This document shows positions 55,376 to 62,448 of a stretch of 64,000 nt of DNA, piece by piece; position 1 is the stretch's first letter; every line of letters begins with the position of its first letter. This stretch comes from Flavobacteriales bacterium (GTDB lineage: Bacteria; Bacteroidota; Bacteroidia; UBA10329), in NCBI GenBank assembly GCA_016124845.1, contig WGMW01000039.1, positions 1-64,000 on the forward strand, read 5' to 3'. A program made the position numbers and the translations under genes. The notes beneath the pieces were generated by a model. That model saw only the letters and a list, made by a program, of their open reading frames with translations. It searched no databases and had not been told where the DNA came from.

Positions 55376-56575
55376 TTATTCCGCCATCACGCACACGAAA
55401 AGTCCGTTCTCCCTATCGTTGTAGATGTTGAACAGTGAGTTGAACTTCACATTGGCCACCACGTAATTCAAGTTCGTAGAACGGTATTCCTCTTCAATTG
55501 AAACGATATCCAGTTTCCTCAGGTCTTCACGGTCAGTGAAGCGGATGTACAATTTCAGTTCGAAATCGGTGTCGAGTTTCAGATTCGGGCGACCGTTTTT
55601 GATGGACTTGTCGAGTTTCTTGTAGGCGTATTTGTAATCATAGGTAAGTGCCGAAACATCCGAGAGGACCGCGCTTCCTGTTGGATACGAACCCGCACCT
55701 TTTCCAGCCAGCGTTTGACGGTCAGAATAAGCACCTTCCACTTCAACAGCGTTGTATTCGTAGTTGATATTGTATAGCGCTGTGCCACGATCCACGAACT
55801 GCGGCAGCACATAAACTCGCACCGTATCATCGATCTTCGAAGCCTTTGCCACCAACTTGATGCGCTTGTCGCGCTGCTTGGCAAACTGAATATCATCGAA
55901 CGAAACGTTATTGATGCCGAGGTTCAGAATCTGATCGGGTTTCAGAATTACACCAAAGGCATGAATGGCCAACAGACACAATTTGTACTTGCTATCGAAA
56001 CCGCCCACATCCAGCCACGGATCGCTTTCGGCAAAGCCCGCTTCCTGAGCGAGATTCAGTGCTTCCGAATAATCCATCTTCTCCACTTCCATCATGGTCA
56101 GGATATAATTGGATGAACCGTTCAGGATTCCTTCCACGTGCTCCAAAAGCTCGTTGTCGTAATACTCCTCCAAGTTGCGGATGATGGGAATGCTGCCTCC
56201 AGCCGAGCCTTCATAAAGCAACGCCACTTTATACTTCTTCTGCAGTTCGTACAGCTCCGCGAAGTTCTCGGCCAGCATCTTTTTGTTGGCCGTAACCACA
56301 TTCACGCCATTGCGCATGGCTTCGCTCACGATCTTGAACGCTTCGTCCGCATCATCGATCAGCTCCACCACCACATCCAAGTTGTCGCGGCTCAGAATAT
56401 CGGCCTTGTCAAACGTGAAATAGCTGCTATCGATCTTCCGTTTCTTGGTTCGGTCCTTCACACAGATCTTCTCCACGCTCGCCTCCAATATCTGCGATTG
56501 GTTCAGCACATCGTAAAGTCCTTGCCCCACACATCCGAAGCCGAATAGACCGAGTTTGATTTTCTTGTCTTCCAT
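55376..56575 (-). CDS. hom: Homoserine dehydrogenase, monofunctional, 399 aa
   Basis: The NAD(P) loop KLGLFGFGCVGQGLYDVL (7-24) is followed by VVTANKKMLAENFAELYELQKKY (catalytic-domain entry), YEGSAGGSIPIIRNLEEY and the substrate domain SNYILTMMEVEKMDYSEALNLAQEAGFAESDPWLDVGGFDSKYKL, given here in pieces by key motifs (SNYILT, GFAESDPWLDVGGFDSKYKL). The last 80 residues are degenerate ACT-like. It reduces aspartate semialdehyde to homoserine. Most Bacteroidetes use an aspartokinase fusion; this free-standing copy sits at the end of the sulfur/methionine operon and probably feeds MetX. Confidence 0.9.
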   Translation of the reverse strand: MEDKKIKLGLFGFGCVGQGLYDVLNQSQILEASVEKICVKDRTKKRKIDSSYFTFDKADILSRDNLDVVVELIDDADEAFKIVSEAMRNGVNVVTANKKMLAENFAELYELQKKYKVALLYEGSAGGSIPIIRNLEEYYDNELLEHVEGILNGSSNYILTMMEVEKMDYSEALNLAQEAGFAESDPWLDVGGFDSKYKLCLLAIHAFGVILKPDQILNLGINNVSFDDIQFAKQRDKRIKLVAKASKIDDTVRVYVLPQFVDRGTALYNINYEYNAVEVEGAYSDRQTLAGKGAGSYPTGSAVLSDVSALTYDYKYAYKKLDKSIKNGRPNLKLDTDFELKLYIRFTDREDLRKLDIVSIEEEYRSTNLNYVVANVKFNSLFNIYNDRENGLFVCVMAE

Positions 56576-56613: not shown

Positions 56614-57261
56614 TCATAGATGCAAGCCGCATTCCGTCTTTCCTGATGTTCCCCAACGTCCACTTCTACCCTTTCCCTTAAAGGTGCATTGCGCACAACC
56701 GATGGAATGATACCCGACTTTTTCGAGGGGATGTTTCGGCAGATCATGCTCCGCGAAATAAGCATTCTGTTCCTCTTCCGTGAAGTCGATTATCGGATGG
56801 AATTTGAGCAGGTTTCCTTTCTTCTCAAAAATCTTCCGCGATTTGCGTTCGGTGTTCTGAAATCGCATCAACCCCGACATCCACACTTCATAATTTGGCT
56901 TCAGCGCATCCAACGGTTCCACCTTATTGATGGAACAGCACAGGTCTGGGTCTTTTGTCCACGTTTGGTCATCACGCGTAAATGCATTTTTCCAATCCGC
57001 AGGGAGGACCTTTTCAAGGTTCAGACCGAGTTGTTCTGTGAGCTGATCGCGGTACGCCATCGTCTCGGCAAAATGATAGGTCGTATCAATGAAATGCACC
57101 TTCTGCTCGGGTTTCAGCTTCGAAACCAAATGCAACAGAATTGCCGCAGACGTTCCGAACGATGACGTAAACAGCACCTTGTCGAAGTCGCGGTACACGT
57201 TCAGGATGCGGTCTTCCACCGTCATCTGCCCGTACCTATCGTTCAACTCCTGCAAATTCAT
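56614..57261 (-). CDS. cysH: Assimilatory APS reductase (CysH family, 4Fe-4S type), 215 aa
   Basis: The PP-loop FTSSFGTSAAILLHL (about 31-45) is followed by FIDTTYHFAETMAYRDQL. DLCCSINKVEPL supplies the Cys pair and GCAQCTF the CxxC of the 4Fe-4S cluster, and the redox-active Cys is in TECGLHL at the C-terminus. The CC...CxxC pattern marks adenylylsulfate (APS) reductases (EC 1.8.4.10) rather than PAPS reductases. It makes sulfite for the reductase encoded upstream. The gap before the next gene holds an ACCACAGAG-type repeat. Confidence 0.93.
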   Translation of the reverse strand: MNLQELNDRYGQMTVEDRILNVYRDFDKVLFTSSFGTSAAILLHLVSKLKPEQKVHFIDTTYHFAETMAYRDQLTEQLGLNLEKVLPADWKNAFTRDDQTWTKDPDLCCSINKVEPLDALKPNYEVWMSGLMRFQNTERKSRKIFEKKGNLLKFHPIIDFTEEEQNAYFAEHDLPKHPLEKVGYHSIGCAQCTFKGKGRSGRWGTSGKTECGLHL

Positions 57262-57364: not shown

Positions 57365-57955
57365 TTATCGTTTGGTTTCAGATAACAGTCCTACGGTAAG
57401 TTCGTTCATCCTCTTCACCTTGAACTCAAAATCATCCTTGAGCGTAGCACGAATGGCACGTAGATTATTCGCCAATTGGTTAATGTCTTCTGGGATCACC
57501 TCTTCAAATAGCTGCCGCAAACGTTTGGCAAGTGTAGGCGATTTTCCGTTAGTGGAAATGGCAATTTTCAGGTCGCCTTTGGTCACAATTCCACCCAAGT
57601 AGAAATCGCACATTTCAGGTGTATCGGCCACATTGGTCAGAATGCCTTTCTGCTTCGCGATGGCCTTCACTTTTTCGTGCAACGATGGATTTTCGGTTGC
57701 CAGGATCAGCAGTTGTTTTCCTTCCAGGTCACGTTCCTCAAACGAGCGCTCGATCAATTTCACCGAAGGATGTTTTGCAGCAAGGTCGATCACCTCCTGT
57801 TTGAAGAATTTGGCCACCACCGTCACTTTCGCATTCGGACTGCTTTTGAGCAGGAACGTGAGTTTTTCCAACCCCACATTTCCAGCGCCTACAAGTAGCA
57901 TTTCAAACTCGTGAACCTTCAGGAAAATGGGGTATAGTTCGTTTTGGGTACTCAT
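57365..57955 (-). CDS. Siroheme synthase N-terminal-type protein (precorrin-2 dehydrogenase / ferrochelatase), 196 aa
   Basis: ATG 57955 gives MSTQNELYPIFLKVHEFEML. The NAD-binding loop is VGAGNVGLEKLTFLLKSSP (CysG-N/Met8 type) and NVADTPEMCDFYLGGIVTKGDLKIAISTNGKSPTLAKRLRQ is the family's core, seen here as NVADTPEMCDFYLGG and ISTNGKSP. It oxidises precorrin-2 and inserts iron to make siroheme, the cofactor of the sulfite reductase in the same operon. A GTCATGCTGAAC palindrome separates it from cobA. Confidence 0.92.
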   Translation of the reverse strand: MSTQNELYPIFLKVHEFEMLLVGAGNVGLEKLTFLLKSSPNAKVTVVAKFFKQEVIDLAAKHPSVKLIERSFEERDLEGKQLLILATENPSLHEKVKAIAKQKGILTNVADTPEMCDFYLGGIVTKGDLKIAISTNGKSPTLAKRLRQLFEEVIPEDINQLANNLRAIRATLKDDFEFKVKRMNELTVGLLSETKR

Positions 57956-57972
57956 GATTAACATTTCTTACG

Positions 57973-58042: not shown

Positions 58043-58807
58043 TTACTGTTTTAAATAATTCGTCTCTACAAAAGCGTGACTGAAATTGGGATGATGCTTC
58101 ACCACCTCTCCCAAAACAATGATGGCGGGAGCACCAATCTGGCTATCAGCCGCCAATTTTTCAATCGTATCTACGGTACCCAAAACCACCTTTTCGTTCT
58201 CCAACGAACCATTCTGAATGATGGCAACAGGCATCTCATTGCGACCAGCATTTCGGTACGTTTCTGCGATGAGGGCCAGTTTTTTCGTTCCCATCAACAC
58301 GATAACCGTGGCTGAGCTTTGAGCCGCCAACGTCAGATCTTTCGAGAGTTCAAGATCTTTCGTTGTGCCTGTGATCACCCAGAAACTTTCGCTGTCTTCT
58401 CTTCGCGTTACTGGGATTTTTTGCAATCCAGGAACACCGATGGAACTGCTGATGCCAGGCACAACTTCAGTAGGAATATCGAATGCCTCAACGTACTCGA
58501 TTTCTTCCTGTCCACGCCCGAACACAAACGGGTCGCCACCTTTCAGTCGCACAACATGTCCGTAATTCAATGCATATTCCACAATCAATTTGTTGATCTC
58601 ATCCTGCTTGAATGAATGTTGCCCAGAACGCTTGCCGACAAACACTTTCGGAGCGTTTTTCGGAGCATAGTTCAAAAGGTCAGGGTGCGTCAGCGCATCG
58701 TATAGTACGGCATCTGCCTTGGTCAAAGCCTTCATACCTTTGATGCTTATCAGGTCTGGGTCGCCTGGGCCAGCGCCTAATAATGTGAGTTTGGGGTTAT
58801 TTTTCAT
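58043..58807 (-). CDS. cobA: Uroporphyrinogen-III C-methyltransferase, 254 aa
   Basis: LLGAGPGDPDLISIKGMKAL (9-28) is the SAM-binding start of the SUMT family. LKGGDPFVFGRGQEE, PTEVVPGISSSIGVPG and TVIVLMGTKKL follow. It methylates uroporphyrinogen III twice to precorrin-2, the substrate of the next gene product. Together the two genes make siroheme for the sulfite reductase. It is a separate SUMT, not fused to CysG. Length is canonical. An ACCACAGAG-type repeat fills the gap on its 5' side. Confidence 0.95.
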   Translation of the reverse strand: MKNNPKLTLLGAGPGDPDLISIKGMKALTKADAVLYDALTHPDLLNYAPKNAPKVFVGKRSGQHSFKQDEINKLIVEYALNYGHVVRLKGGDPFVFGRGQEEIEYVEAFDIPTEVVPGISSSIGVPGLQKIPVTRREDSESFWVITGTTKDLELSKDLTLAAQSSATVIVLMGTKKLALIAETYRNAGRNEMPVAIIQNGSLENEKVVLGTVDTIEKLAADSQIGAPAIIVLGEVVKHHPNFSHAFVETNYLKQ

Positions 58808-58971: not shown

Positions 58972-61068
58972 TCATTTTTCTCCTTTCAGTTGTTCTTCTC
59001 TGTAATTTTTGATGGTGACAAGGAATTGCTCCGCTTGCGCGAAATACAGTTTTGCGAATTCCTTCGAGGGTTTCTCCGAACGCATTGTCAACACCAGTTC
59101 CGTGAATGTCGTTCCAAATTGAATTTTGACCGTTTCCACGAACGTTTTGTCGAAATCGGAGATGATGCCTGCCTGTGTGTTGCAACGGACGTTGTCGCCC
59201 AAAAGCAAGCCTTTTGCTCCGTTAACAAAAGCGGTGTAGGTGTGGTAAATGCCATCTGCGTAGCGACTTTCCTTCAATGCTTCTGTAGCCCATTCGAGCT
59301 TTTCTTCAGCTTCGAAAAACAGTGTTTGCACAAGGTCAATAACCACACCAGCACACTCTCCCAATCCAATTTCAGGCTTGAAAAGTTGTTCTTTGCCCCA
59401 ATCGTAGTAATCGCTCTCTTGAATCGTTTCCAACTCGGCAAGCGGCTTGAAAAGTTCATAGAAATAATGGTTGCCCAAACGCTGGTAGTAGTCATTGAAG
59501 TACTCGCCTTCAAGCCCGTTTTCTTCGTAATCATTCAATACCGAACGAAGCAAATCAGGTGTTCTTTTCGATGGAATTTTGATGACCTTATCGGCCACCG
59601 TTCCATTGCCGTTTCCGAGCGTTCCACCGCCCAAAAGCACTTGCATGGCAGGAACGACTTTTCCGTCATGCTTCATGGAACTTCCATGGAAACCGATGTT
59701 GGCAATGCCGTGCTGCCCGCATGAGTTCATGCAACCGCTGATCTTGATTTTGATGTCACGGTTATGAATCAATTCTGGGTATTCCGAACGAATCACTTTT
59801 TCCAATTCAAGTGCCGTTCCCGTGCTGTTGGAAATCCCCAAGTTGCAGGTGTCCGTTCCTGGACAAGCCGTAATGTCGGCCACACTGTCGAAGCCTGGTT
59901 CTGCCAAACCGAGCGCGTTCAGTCCTTCATACAAGGGCGAAAGTGCTTCTTGCGTTACGTAGCGCAACAGATAACCTTGATTGATGGTCACACGGATGTC
60001 ATCAGCCGCAAATTCCTTCACCACCTTGGCAAAAGCACGGGCAGTATCGGATGAAATATTTCCCAACGGAACACGGACAAAAACCCCGAAGAAACCTTCC
60101 TGTTTCTGCTCAAAAACGTTCGTTTTGAGCCAGTTGTCATAATGCTCTCGGTCTTTGATGCGAGCGGTAAGCACGGTTCCCAATTTTGGTGGTTCGGGCG
60201 TGATGACCGCGTTTCGATCAACCCAAACTTCTTGATCCTTCAACGCTACGTACTCGCCCTTGATCTGCTTCATCAGTTCTTCCAAACCGACATCCTGAAG
60301 CAAGTATTTGAATCGCGCCTTGTTTCTACGATTTCGCTCTCCGTAACGGTCGAAAATGCGCAACGTAGCAGCGGTGAATGGGATGATCTTTTCTTCTTCG
60401 AGAAACTCGAAAGCGGTCAGAGCCAAATGCGGCTGAGCACCCAAGCCACCACCGATAAGCACTTTGAAACCGCGCTTTTCTCCATTTAGAACAGGGATGA
60501 ACCCGAGGTCGTGGATGAGGGTGAAAGACGTGTCTTTGACCGTTGACGCAAAGGCGATTTTGAACTTACGCCCCATTTCCTGACAGATCGGATTTCGTAG
60601 AAAATATTCGAACATCTGCTGCGCATAAGGCGAGACATCGAACGGCTCTTCGGGGTCGATGCCAGCCTTGTCAGAAGCCGTAATGTTGCGCACCGTGTTT
60701 CCGCAAGCTTCGCGAAGTGTGATGTTGGATTTTTCCAATTCGTGCCAAAGCTGTGGTGTTCGGTCCAAACTCACGTAATGGATCTGAATGTCCTGTCGCG
60801 TGGTAGCATGCAGCGTGCTGCTGGCGTACTCATCCGAAATGTCCGCGATCTTAATCAGTTGCTCGCTGGTCATCCTGCCGTACGGGATCTTGATGCGGAT
60901 CATCTGCACGCCTTGCTGCCGCTGGCCGTAAACGCCTCGCGCCAACCGCAGACTGCGGAATTTCTCCTCGTCAACCTTGCCTTCTTTGAAGAGACGGATC
61001 TTCTTTTCCAGATCGAGAATGTCCTTCTCAACCACGGGGTTTTCTAACTCTGTTCTGAAACTCTGCAT
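58972..61068 (-). CDS. Siroheme/4Fe-4S sulfite (or nitrite) reductase with C-terminal helical HEPN-like domain, 698 aa
   Basis: Two ferredoxin-like/siroheme half-domains are present. Cys ligands are in ITACPGTDTCNLGISNSTG and KIKISGCMNSCGQHGIANIG (C-x5-C and C-x3-C). RLARGVYGQRQQGVQMIRIKIPYG is the typical N-terminal substrate-side segment. Genome context (APS reductase, siroheme genes, metX) favours sulfite over nitrite. About 130 helical residues (from LGECAGVVIDL) are fused at the C-terminus and look like a HEPN-type bundle, seen in other Bacteroidetes homologues. I start at ATG 61068 (MQSFRTELENP); ATG 61092 directly abuts the T-run of the attenuator terminator. Confidence 0.88.
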   Translation of the reverse strand: MQSFRTELENPVVEKDILDLEKKIRLFKEGKVDEEKFRSLRLARGVYGQRQQGVQMIRIKIPYGRMTSEQLIKIADISDEYASSTLHATTRQDIQIHYVSLDRTPQLWHELEKSNITLREACGNTVRNITASDKAGIDPEEPFDVSPYAQQMFEYFLRNPICQEMGRKFKIAFASTVKDTSFTLIHDLGFIPVLNGEKRGFKVLIGGGLGAQPHLALTAFEFLEEEKIIPFTAATLRIFDRYGERNRRNKARFKYLLQDVGLEELMKQIKGEYVALKDQEVWVDRNAVITPEPPKLGTVLTARIKDREHYDNWLKTNVFEQKQEGFFGVFVRVPLGNISSDTARAFAKVVKEFAADDIRVTINQGYLLRYVTQEALSPLYEGLNALGLAEPGFDSVADITACPGTDTCNLGISNSTGTALELEKVIRSEYPELIHNRDIKIKISGCMNSCGQHGIANIGFHGSSMKHDGKVVPAMQVLLGGGTLGNGNGTVADKVIKIPSKRTPDLLRSVLNDYEENGLEGEYFNDYYQRLGNHYFYELFKPLAELETIQESDYYDWGKEQLFKPEIGLGECAGVVIDLVQTLFFEAEEKLEWATEALKESRYADGIYHTYTAFVNGAKGLLLGDNVRCNTQAGIISDFDKTFVETVKIQFGTTFTELVLTMRSEKPSKEFAKLYFAQAEQFLVTIKNYREEQLKGEK

Positions 61069-61093
61069 ATATATTGGTTTGTTTTTGTGCATT

Positions 61094-61127
61094 AAAAAAG
61101 CCCTTCCACGCTTGGCAGAAGGGCTTT
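61094..61127 (-). terminator. Attenuator terminator 2, before the sulfite reductase gene
   Basis: On the minus strand AAAGCCCTTC (61127-61118) and GAAGGGCTTT (61106-61097) form a perfect 10-bp stem with loop TGCCAAGCGTG and a run of T to 61094. It lies 24 bases after the stop of leader peptide 2 and 26 before the chosen start of the reductase gene, so it must be bypassed for the operon to be expressed. Confidence 0.85.
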
Positions 61128-61150
61128 GTACGATTGAATTGAATGTACCA

Positions 61151-61213
61151 TCACCACCTCCACCTCTCGGCAGACATGCAGCAACAACACATCATTTTAT
61201 TCACTCGGATCAT
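61151..61213 (-). CDS. Cysteine-run leader peptide 2, 20 aa
   Basis: ATG 61213 opens MIRVNKMMCCCCMSAERWRW and stops at TGA 61153-61151. Cys 9-12 are encoded by TGT TGT TGC TGC and are flanked by Met codons. The last codons (AGG TGG AGG TGG TGA) make a G-rich stretch. GGTGGAGG (61164-61157) can pair with CTTCTGCC of the following terminator's 5' arm and loop (61121-61114), with three G-U pairs. This is the layout of a ribosome-stalling leader peptide. It is too short for a gene caller and is not expected to have a function as a protein. Confidence 0.8.
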   Translation of the reverse strand: MIRVNKMMCCCCMSAERWRW

Positions 61214-61227
61214 CGTTTTCAAGTCAT

Positions 61228-61258
61228 AAAAAAAGCCCCTCAGTTGTTTGAGAGGCTT
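61228..61258 (-). terminator. Attenuator terminator 1, between the two leader peptides
   Basis: On the minus strand GCCTCTCA (61256-61249) and TGAGGGGC (61242-61235) pair in an 8-bp stem (one G-U), loop AACAAC, followed by seven T (61234-61228). Its 5' arm AGCCTCTC (61257-61250) is perfectly complementary to GAGAGGCT at the end of leader 1 (61300-61293), the expected antiterminator. Confidence 0.85.
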
Positions 61259-61290
61259 GTAGTTTTCTGTTCGTTTATCCAATAAACGCA

Positions 61291-61368
61291 TCAGCCTCTC
61301 CACGAAAATGCACAGCAACAGCACATGCCGTTGTTCATCATTTCCATAAGAGACTTCATTGCTTTCAT
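61291..61368 (-). CDS. Cysteine/methionine-rich leader peptide 1, 25 aa
   Basis: ATG 61368 opens MKAMKSLMEMMNNGMCCCC (residues 1-19), then AFSWRG and TGA at 61293-61291. Six of the first 15 residues are Met and residues 16-19 are four Cys (TGC TGT TGC TGT). The segments AGTCTCTT (codons 5-7, 61355-61348), GAGAGGCT (last codons, 61300-61293) and the terminator's AGCCTCTC can pair 1:2 or 2:3, and the terminator is 3:4, as in classical amino-acid operons. A ribosome waiting at the Cys codons leaves 2 free to pair with 3, so the terminator cannot form. Confidence 0.82.
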   Translation of the reverse strand: MKAMKSLMEMMNNGMCCCCAFSWRG

Positions 61369-61378
61369 TGTGTGATGC

Positions 61379-61409
61379 CAAATGTAGAATGCGAACTTTT
61401 ACAAAACAA
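61379..61409 (-). promoter_or_regulatory. Promoter of the cysteine-attenuated sulfur operon
   Basis: On the minus strand TTG (61409-61407), a 20-base spacer, and TACATTTG (61386-61379), a perfect -7 element. Leader 1 ATG is 10 bases further, giving an almost leaderless leader-peptide mRNA. The promoter lies within the 57 bases between metX and leader 1. Confidence 0.7.
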
Positions 61410-61425
61410 CAGCGGTAACCATTTT

Positions 61426-62448
61426 TTAATATTTTGAGTTCAAAAAGTCGGCCAATAGACGCGAAACCGTATCTGTTTCAACCAAAAAACCATCATGCCC
61501 AAAGGGCGATGAAATGACCTCTAACTGCGAATTTGGAATGTGCTTCGCGATGAATTGTTGCTCCGTTATCGGACAAAGAATGTCGCTATCGACACCGATT
61601 ACCAGCGTGTTCGCTTGAATCATTCTAAGAGCTTCCTCAACCGAACTTCTTCCGCGCCCCAAATTGTGGCTGTCCATGGCTTTTGATAGTAGGATGTAAC
61701 TCTGCGCGTTGAATCGTTTCACCAGTTTTTCGCCCTGATAACGGATGTACGAAGCGGCCTTATAGCCTACCAACTTCTCTTCTTCGTCTTCTTGCGTTTG
61801 CTTGAATGCCTCGTAGTTTCTGTATGTCAACATTCCGATTCCGCGAGCGGCTTTCAATCCATTCGCGCCAGCGTTGGGTGATTCATCTTTCCAAGTCGCA
61901 TCAGCTTCAATGGCCAACCGTTGTGCCTCGTGAATGGAAATTTCCCAAGCAGATGCTTTGGCGCTTGTCACAAGCAAACAGAGGTTGTTGAAAAGACTTT
62001 CATCGGCAATTGCCCATTCCATCAATTGATAACCGCCCATGCTGCCGCCCATTCCCAGGGCAATTTTCTTCACGCCCAAATGCGCTTGCAACAGTTGATG
62101 CGCTTTTACCATATCTCGTATCGTCACCATCGGAAACGAACCGAAATATGGTTTTCCAGTTTCTGGATTTTCCGTCAGCGGCCCCGAACTGCCATAGCAC
62201 GAACCAAGAATGTTGGCGCAAACGATGAAGCATTTGCTCGGGTCAAACGTCCTCCCTTCTCCGAAAAGTCCGCTCCACCAGTCAGCAACATCAGAGTTGG
62301 CGGTAAGCGCATGGCACACCCAAATGACGTTATCGCCAGCGGCATTCAACTCGCCATACGTGTGATAGGCGATTTCAACCTGCGGTAGAATCGCGCCACA
62401 CTCCAATGGAAATGGTTGGTTATGGATGTATTTTTGGACAGGATTCAT
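61426..62448 (-). CDS. metX: Homoserine O-acetyltransferase MetX, 340 aa
   Basis: This is an alpha/beta hydrolase-fold acyltransferase: VWVCHALTANSDVADWW, FIVCANILGSCYGSSGP, the nucleophile elbow GGSMGGYQLMEW (Ser near 138) and the late VIGVDSDILCPITEQ and SPFGHDGFLVE holding the Asp and His. These match MetX (EC 2.3.1.31), which activates homoserine for direct sulfhydrylation. It sits upstream of the attenuator, so read-through transcripts from metX would also pass the two terminators. Length is typical. Confidence 0.93.
   Translation of the reverse strand: MNPVQKYIHNQPFPLECGAILPQVEIAYHTYGELNAAGDNVIWVCHALTANSDVADWWSGLFGEGRTFDPSKCFIVCANILGSCYGSSGPLTENPETGKPYFGSFPMVTIRDMVKAHQLLQAHLGVKKIALGMGGSMGGYQLMEWAIADESLFNNLCLLVTSAKASAWEISIHEAQRLAIEADATWKDESPNAGANGLKAARGIGMLTYRNYEAFKQTQEDEEEKLVGYKAASYIRYQGEKLVKRFNAQSYILLSKAMDSHNLGRGRSSVEEALRMIQANTLVIGVDSDILCPITEQQFIAKHIPNSQLEVISSPFGHDGFLVETDTVSRLLADFLNSKY

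Follow-up and report, generated by a model that had tools for sequence, protein, structure and literature searches.

In the trp, his and phe attenuators (Rfam Trp_leader, Phe_leader, His_leader) a leader ORF with consecutive codons for the amino acid under control precedes, together with mutually exclusive antiterminator and terminator structures, the first gene of the respective pathway. Leaders with cysteine codons are described from actinobacteria, where leaderless poly-Cys short open reading frames (ORFs) of mycobacteria and others precede cysteine-synthesis genes (PMC1262725, PMC4633059). The Cys run of these ORFs lies at the stop codon, no intrinsic terminator follows and they are described as translational attenuators (PMC1262725, PMC4633059, PMC13236596 citing Canestrari 2020). 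The uORFC-8-2 motif of Rhodobacterales has two Cys codons with an intrinsic terminator thereafter and is reported only before cysS (PMC8632094). The tandem attenuators of Salmonella mgtCBR control a single operon by a pair of leader ORFs in its leader region (PMC3641672). In the phylum Bacteroidota, transcriptome data from Flavobacterium psychrophilum give evidence of attenuated leaders at amino-acid operons; the main text names neither a cysteine attenuator nor a tandem arrangement (PMC9723704).

We analysed a stretch of 64,000 nucleotides from a Flavobacteriales bacterium (contig WGMW01000039.1; hereafter the window), in which the sulfite reductase gene SiR is preceded by two consecutive units, each consisting of a cysteine-run leader peptide and an intrinsic terminator. 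With the trp, his and phe attenuators the region shares the run of product amino-acid codons, the exclusive antiterminator and terminator and the position in front of the first pathway gene; it differs in the amino acid being cysteine, in the Bacteroidota-type promoter TAnnTTTG, in an almost absent 5' UTR and in two units being arranged in series. Like the actinobacterial poly-Cys ORFs, the leader region of the window places short ORFs with consecutive Cys codons ahead of cysteine-synthesis genes, yet it is not of that type, as it carries two terminators with an antiterminator and leaves 6 and 8 sense codons between the Cys run and the stop. With uORFC-8-2 it likewise shares a short ORF that contains Cys codons and is followed by an intrinsic terminator, while that alphaproteobacterial motif has two Cys codons before cysS, with no tandem mentioned in the passage on it, instead of four before a SiR operon (PMC8632094). 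In contrast to mgtCBR, a virulence and Mg2+ operon with two different leader ORFs (PMC3641672), the leader region of the window uses the same regulatory codon twice. No Rfam 15 family scored above its gathering threshold on the leader region; the Phe_leader and Trp_leader models matched both units weakly, below threshold. Nor did we find a description of a cysteine attenuator in Bacteroidota or of a tandem cysteine attenuator in any organism in a literature search that covered chiefly openly accessible papers, and the statement of the initial annotation that no such tandem was described in Bacteroidetes agrees with this incomplete literature.

All features lie on the minus strand in the order metX, one promoter, leader 1, terminator 1, leader 2, terminator 2, SiR, cobA, cysG-N, cysH and hom. 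The gene directly upstream, identified as MetX by Pfam and NCBIfam, ends at 61426. The first structural gene, at 58972-61068, encodes sulfite reductase with NIR_SIR and NIR_SIR_ferr domains; a start at 61092 was rejected in favour of the conserved ATG at 61068, since homologues begin with MQSFRTELENP. Pfam and NCBIfam assigned the following genes to uroporphyrinogen-III C-methyltransferase (cobA/cysG C-terminal type; 58043-58807), precorrin-2 dehydrogenase/siroheme synthase N-terminal type (cysG-N; 57365-57964), phosphoadenylyl-sulfate reductase cysH (56614-57261) and homoserine dehydrogenase hom (55376-56575). The genes after the leader region thus belong to sulfate assimilation and the operon makes the amino acid that its leaders encode, as in trp-type systems. 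With hom inside and metX upstream it serves the synthesis of both Cys and Met.

The initial annotation had postulated a consensus promoter in front of leader 1. A promoter is present, but its consensus is of the Bacteroidota type TAnnTTTG: the -7 element TACATTTG is located at 61379-61386, 10 nt from the ATG of leader 1, and the predicted 5' UTR has a few nucleotides only. A probable -33 region (TTGTTTTG...) at 61396-61409 was deduced from the sequence alone. A sigma-70 promoter scan of the region returned a single chance-level site located elsewhere and none that was credible.

The two leaders were read as announced, with 25 and 20 residues and four consecutive Cys codons each, at 61368-61291 and 61213-61151, and a strong intrinsic terminator follows each of them (61258-61228 and 61127-61094). 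Leader peptide 1, MKAMKSLMEMMNNGMCCCCAFSWRG (61291-61368 including the stop), contains the Cys codons TGC TGT TGC TGT at 61312-61323. Its end is overlapped by segment 2, GAGAGGCT (61300-61293), the exact complement of segment 3, AGCCTCTC (61257-61250), which constitutes the 5' arm of terminator 1. The terminator with its U-tract (AAGCCTCTCAAACAACTGAGGGGCTTTTTTT; 61228-61258) has a stem from 61258 to 61233 and is closed by 61241-61235; the U-tract reaches to 61228. Segment 1 (61344-61355), the protector arm of a predicted leader hairpin, would mask segment 2 in the absence of a stalled ribosome; pairing between 61355-61348 and 61300-61293 is possible with G-U pairs. The fold of the whole unit had a z of -6.3 with a strong predicted 1:2 protector. 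The segment coordinates of the initial annotation were right, whereas the exact 8-nt 1:2 match was not conserved; what is kept in congeners is the larger predicted leader hairpin that encloses it. A longer ORF (MRLLDKRTENYK...) that extends from the stop codon of leader 1 across terminator 1 and into leader 2 was dismissed because it is interrupted in a congeneric genome (G004).

Leader peptide 2, MIRVNKMMCCCCMSAERWRW (20 residues, 61151-61213 including the stop), carries the run TGT TGT TGC TGC at 61178-61189. Pairing analysis placed its segment 2, GGTGGAGGTGG, at 61153-61164 and its segment 3, CTTCTGCC, at 61114-61121 within the 5' arm of terminator 2 (61094-61127; stem 61127-61097, U-tract to 61094). 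In the predicted fold segment 2 is sequestered by a local GNRA-loop hairpin, TCTGCC-GAGA-GGTGGA (61159-61174), whose 5' arm would lie beneath a ribosome that has halted at the Cys codons. The hairpin is also predicted in the congeners G004 and G005 with a GAAA loop (TCTACC-GAAA-GGTGGA or close). In this model the hairpin would be the local equivalent of the protector, and a stalled ribosome would free segment 2. The supposition that unit 2 is the weaker one did not hold, as the 2:3 energy was -17.7 kcal/mol compared with -16.1 kcal/mol in unit 1.

The arrangement before the SiR operon most probably represents two trp-type, ribosome-mediated transcription attenuators in series behind one promoter, which sense charged tRNA-Cys. 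As far as sequence can tell, the leader region works like trp-type attenuation: we found a leader ORF with a Cys run, an intrinsic terminator, a 2:3 pairing exclusive with that terminator, and a segment 2 so placed that it would be free at a stall on the Cys run and covered at the leader stop. With plentiful cysteine the ribosome would pass the Cys codons, reach the leader stop and cover segment 2, so that segment 3 would pair with segment 4 and RNA polymerase would terminate. When cysteine is short, the ribosome would stall on the Cys codons about 11 nt before segment 2, which would stay free, pair with segment 3 and let polymerase proceed. Read-through would be needed at gate 1 and then at gate 2 before SiR, cobA, cysG-N, cysH and hom are transcribed. 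We infer that read-through responds to Cys-tRNA; most likely transcription of the operon is let through only at a shortage of cysteine, and perhaps of methionine too. Transcripts reading through from metX, if any, would likewise meet both gates.

The congeners G004 and G005 both have the two units in unchanged order, with the leaders MKAKKSNMKMMNNGMCCCCAFLWRG and MINQNKMMCCCCKSTERWKW in the former and MTNAQFDMKMMNTACCCCCLFPMRS and one ending in KMKCCCCKSTERWE in the latter. Aligned Cys codons of the window, G004 and G005 differ only by synonymous TGC/TGT changes, in leader 1 between the window and G004 for instance; the sequence that separates terminator 1 from leader 2 is freely variable. Unit 1 of G005 has one mismatch between segments 2 and 3 (p=0.033). 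Conservation of the Cys runs and of the complementarity of segments 2 and 3, which the initial annotation had made the touchstone of its proposal, was borne out in both congeners that retain the locus, and equivalent complementarity occurs in many other families. Five further genomes of the genus (G001-G003, G007, G008) gave no SiR match. The sixth, G006 (L017/L190), has just one Cys leader, whose antiterminator is perfect, in front of a mere SiR remnant with stop codons, and hom is the next intact ORF; here the operon appears to be partly lost and the attenuator retained.

To look beyond the genus, 95 SiR upstream regions, drawn from 80 named Bacteroidota loci and relatives and including records of Chitinophaga, Pedobacter, Mucilaginibacter and Cyclobacteriaceae, were surveyed. 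By relaxed criteria a Cys-rich short ORF with a terminator was present in 43 regions, as opposed to none on the antisense strand and 0-2 in shuffled sequences; strict criteria for a Cys-clustered short ORF with a terminator left 25 of the 95 (antisense 0, shuffles 0-1). Of the 59 regions that have a terminator close to SiR, 43 carry a Cys leader. About half of the SiR upstream regions had no such leader by these criteria; often no terminator was found near SiR or SiR was not the first gene. As a positive control, His-run leaders with terminators preceded hisG in 18 of 30 loci. The one in the present genome, MTRTHHHHHLNCSEKPE, is located before hisG at L221 (G000:C26), in addition to 17 further hisG loci. 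Judged by the His leaders with terminators, classical attenuation is general in this bacterial group.

The survey bears on a reading by chance, namely that termination here belongs to the metX transcript and that the Cys-rich ORFs arose by accident. The end of metX just upstream, at 61426, would suit this reading, and TGY runs are common in the genome, which has 60 sites with four in a row. Yet leader 1 is separated from metX by a promoter element, not one of 30 sites examined out of these 60 resembled a sulfur-gene attenuator, and chance is contradicted by the sense-strand excess and by conservation in other families; we consider it extremely improbable. Of the 30, only two had a terminator, L123, where a signal-peptide-like leader precedes an aldehyde dehydrogenase-like ORF, and L127 without a downstream ORF; both were judged to be chance occurrences. 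The class-wide pattern ATGTGYTGYTGYTGY did not yield an attenuator in the first 30 loci, and most of its matches are therefore due to chance; further matches picked by hand gave L164, L185 and the terminator-free form described below.

Alternative pairing was examined in 45 units by comparing the stretch from the last Cys codon to the terminator with the 5' arm of the terminator, against dinucleotide shuffles. Antiterminator pairing exceeded the shuffles at p<0.05 in 23 units and individually missed this level in the other 22. The combined Fisher value of 1.6e-23 is overstated as several of the units are related; a thinned set of 36 gave 2.8e-20. The median distance from the last Cys codon to the start of segment 2 was 11 nt (quartiles 9 and 13). 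This start fell at +7 to +16 in 78% of the units compared with 23% in shuffles, and in 38/45 it came before the leader ORF ended. A fixed position of segment 2 combined with a changing sequence matches the geometry required by a stalled ribosome. In predicted folds of partial transcripts ending before segment 4 a 2:3 hairpin of at least 5 pairs formed in 44 of the 45 units, both window units among them. The 1:2 protector pairing is predicted in unit 1 of the window and, as a structure, in its congeners, with weak support across the class.

In a second form of Cys leader in Bacteroidota, which resembles the actinobacterial poly-Cys ORFs, the Cys codons lie at the stop codon or adjacent to it and an intrinsic terminator is lacking. 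We saw it before hom (L158-L160), an O-acetylhomoserine sulfhydrylase-like gene (L162), cysH (L175-L177) and SiR (L019, L020, L026, L036); at L158-L160 a long hairpin of GGTTTGATG with CATCAAAC follows the leader stop. That such leaders exist before hom, cysH, metY-like genes and SiR, and that mycobacterial poly-Cys ORFs are reported to act without intrinsic terminators (PMC1262725; Canestrari 2020 as cited in PMC13236596), would favour leaders that sense Cys while acting mainly on translation or RNA stability, with incidental terminators. In the window, however, the strong terminator of each unit can pair with segment 2 through its 5' arm, a combination that is conserved. Moreover, about 25 nt separate the end of terminator 2 from the SiR start; for translational control, another gate further upstream would be odd. 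Thus we regard an action mainly on translation or stability as improbable and favor transcription attenuation.

Tandem units were detected in about six lineages, namely this genus, L008/L056, L011, L016, L042 and L164. The pair of L042 precedes cysH-cysD-cysN-SiR, as named from ORFs and sequence resemblance, and that of L164 a gene resembling O-acetylhomoserine sulfhydrylase in sequence. The TAnnTTTG element lies ahead of first or single units in 32 of 37 cases and ahead of none of eight second units. This indicates gates in series, the second of which lacks a recognisable promoter, and lends support to the two serial gates suggested at the outset; we infer that read-through of the two gates multiplies.

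Clusters of cysteines are generally able to bind metals, and the leader products might be functional small proteins, e.g. for metal or sulfide binding. Between families, however, the leaders differ greatly in length and in the residues that do not belong to the Cys/Met cluster, whereas the codon run, its spacing to segment 2 and the terminator are constant; we therefore hold a function of the peptides themselves to be very unlikely, and attenuation by the codon run remains the preferred reading.

The Met-rich start of leader 1 had raised the idea of a methionine input, which gained comparative support. Met accounts for 10.9% of the non-start, non-Cys leader residues compared with 4.0% in shuffles (maximum 5.3%) and 2.6% in His leaders of related genomes (Fisher p=2e-5 for Cys versus His leaders), and peaks just ahead of the Cys cluster (20/54 at the position before the first Cys). 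This enrichment, and an operon that feeds both pathways, argue for leaders that sense Cys and Met alike. On the other hand, internal Met codons may be alternative starts near the Cys run or suit the RNA structure, the leaders are phylogenetically non-independent, and we could confirm no leader that carries runs of Met only. Sensing of both amino acids is accordingly a serious possibility, though one we put somewhat below the opposite view. One contig carries a poly-Cys leader and also a SAM-I (S-box) riboswitch that scores above the Rfam gathering threshold (L162:1922-2058); SAM-based control of the Met side may operate there next to Cys control.

More tentatively still, assimilatory sulfate reduction in Bacteroidota may be governed by a phylum-wide, undescribed regulon of attenuators that sense Cys and Met codons, in which doubling of the gate on one promoter arose several times and gives a two-step, AND-type response with the same tRNA read twice. 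Bacteroidota are abundant in soil, sea and gut, the literature searched says little on how they regulate the assimilation of sulfate, and Cys attenuators with true intrinsic terminators are rarely described in bacteria. Two gates in series with the same codon are a natural test of whether stacked attenuators sharpen a response, and the leader sequences can be used as ready-made reporters. Predicted leaders before hom, cysH and the O-acetylhomoserine sulfhydrylase gene outline a cysteine regulon. Finally, a Cys leader with a terminator also precedes two genes located directly upstream of SiR, a peroxiredoxin-like one at L073 and an aldo/keto reductase-like one at L045, both named from sequence resemblance only.
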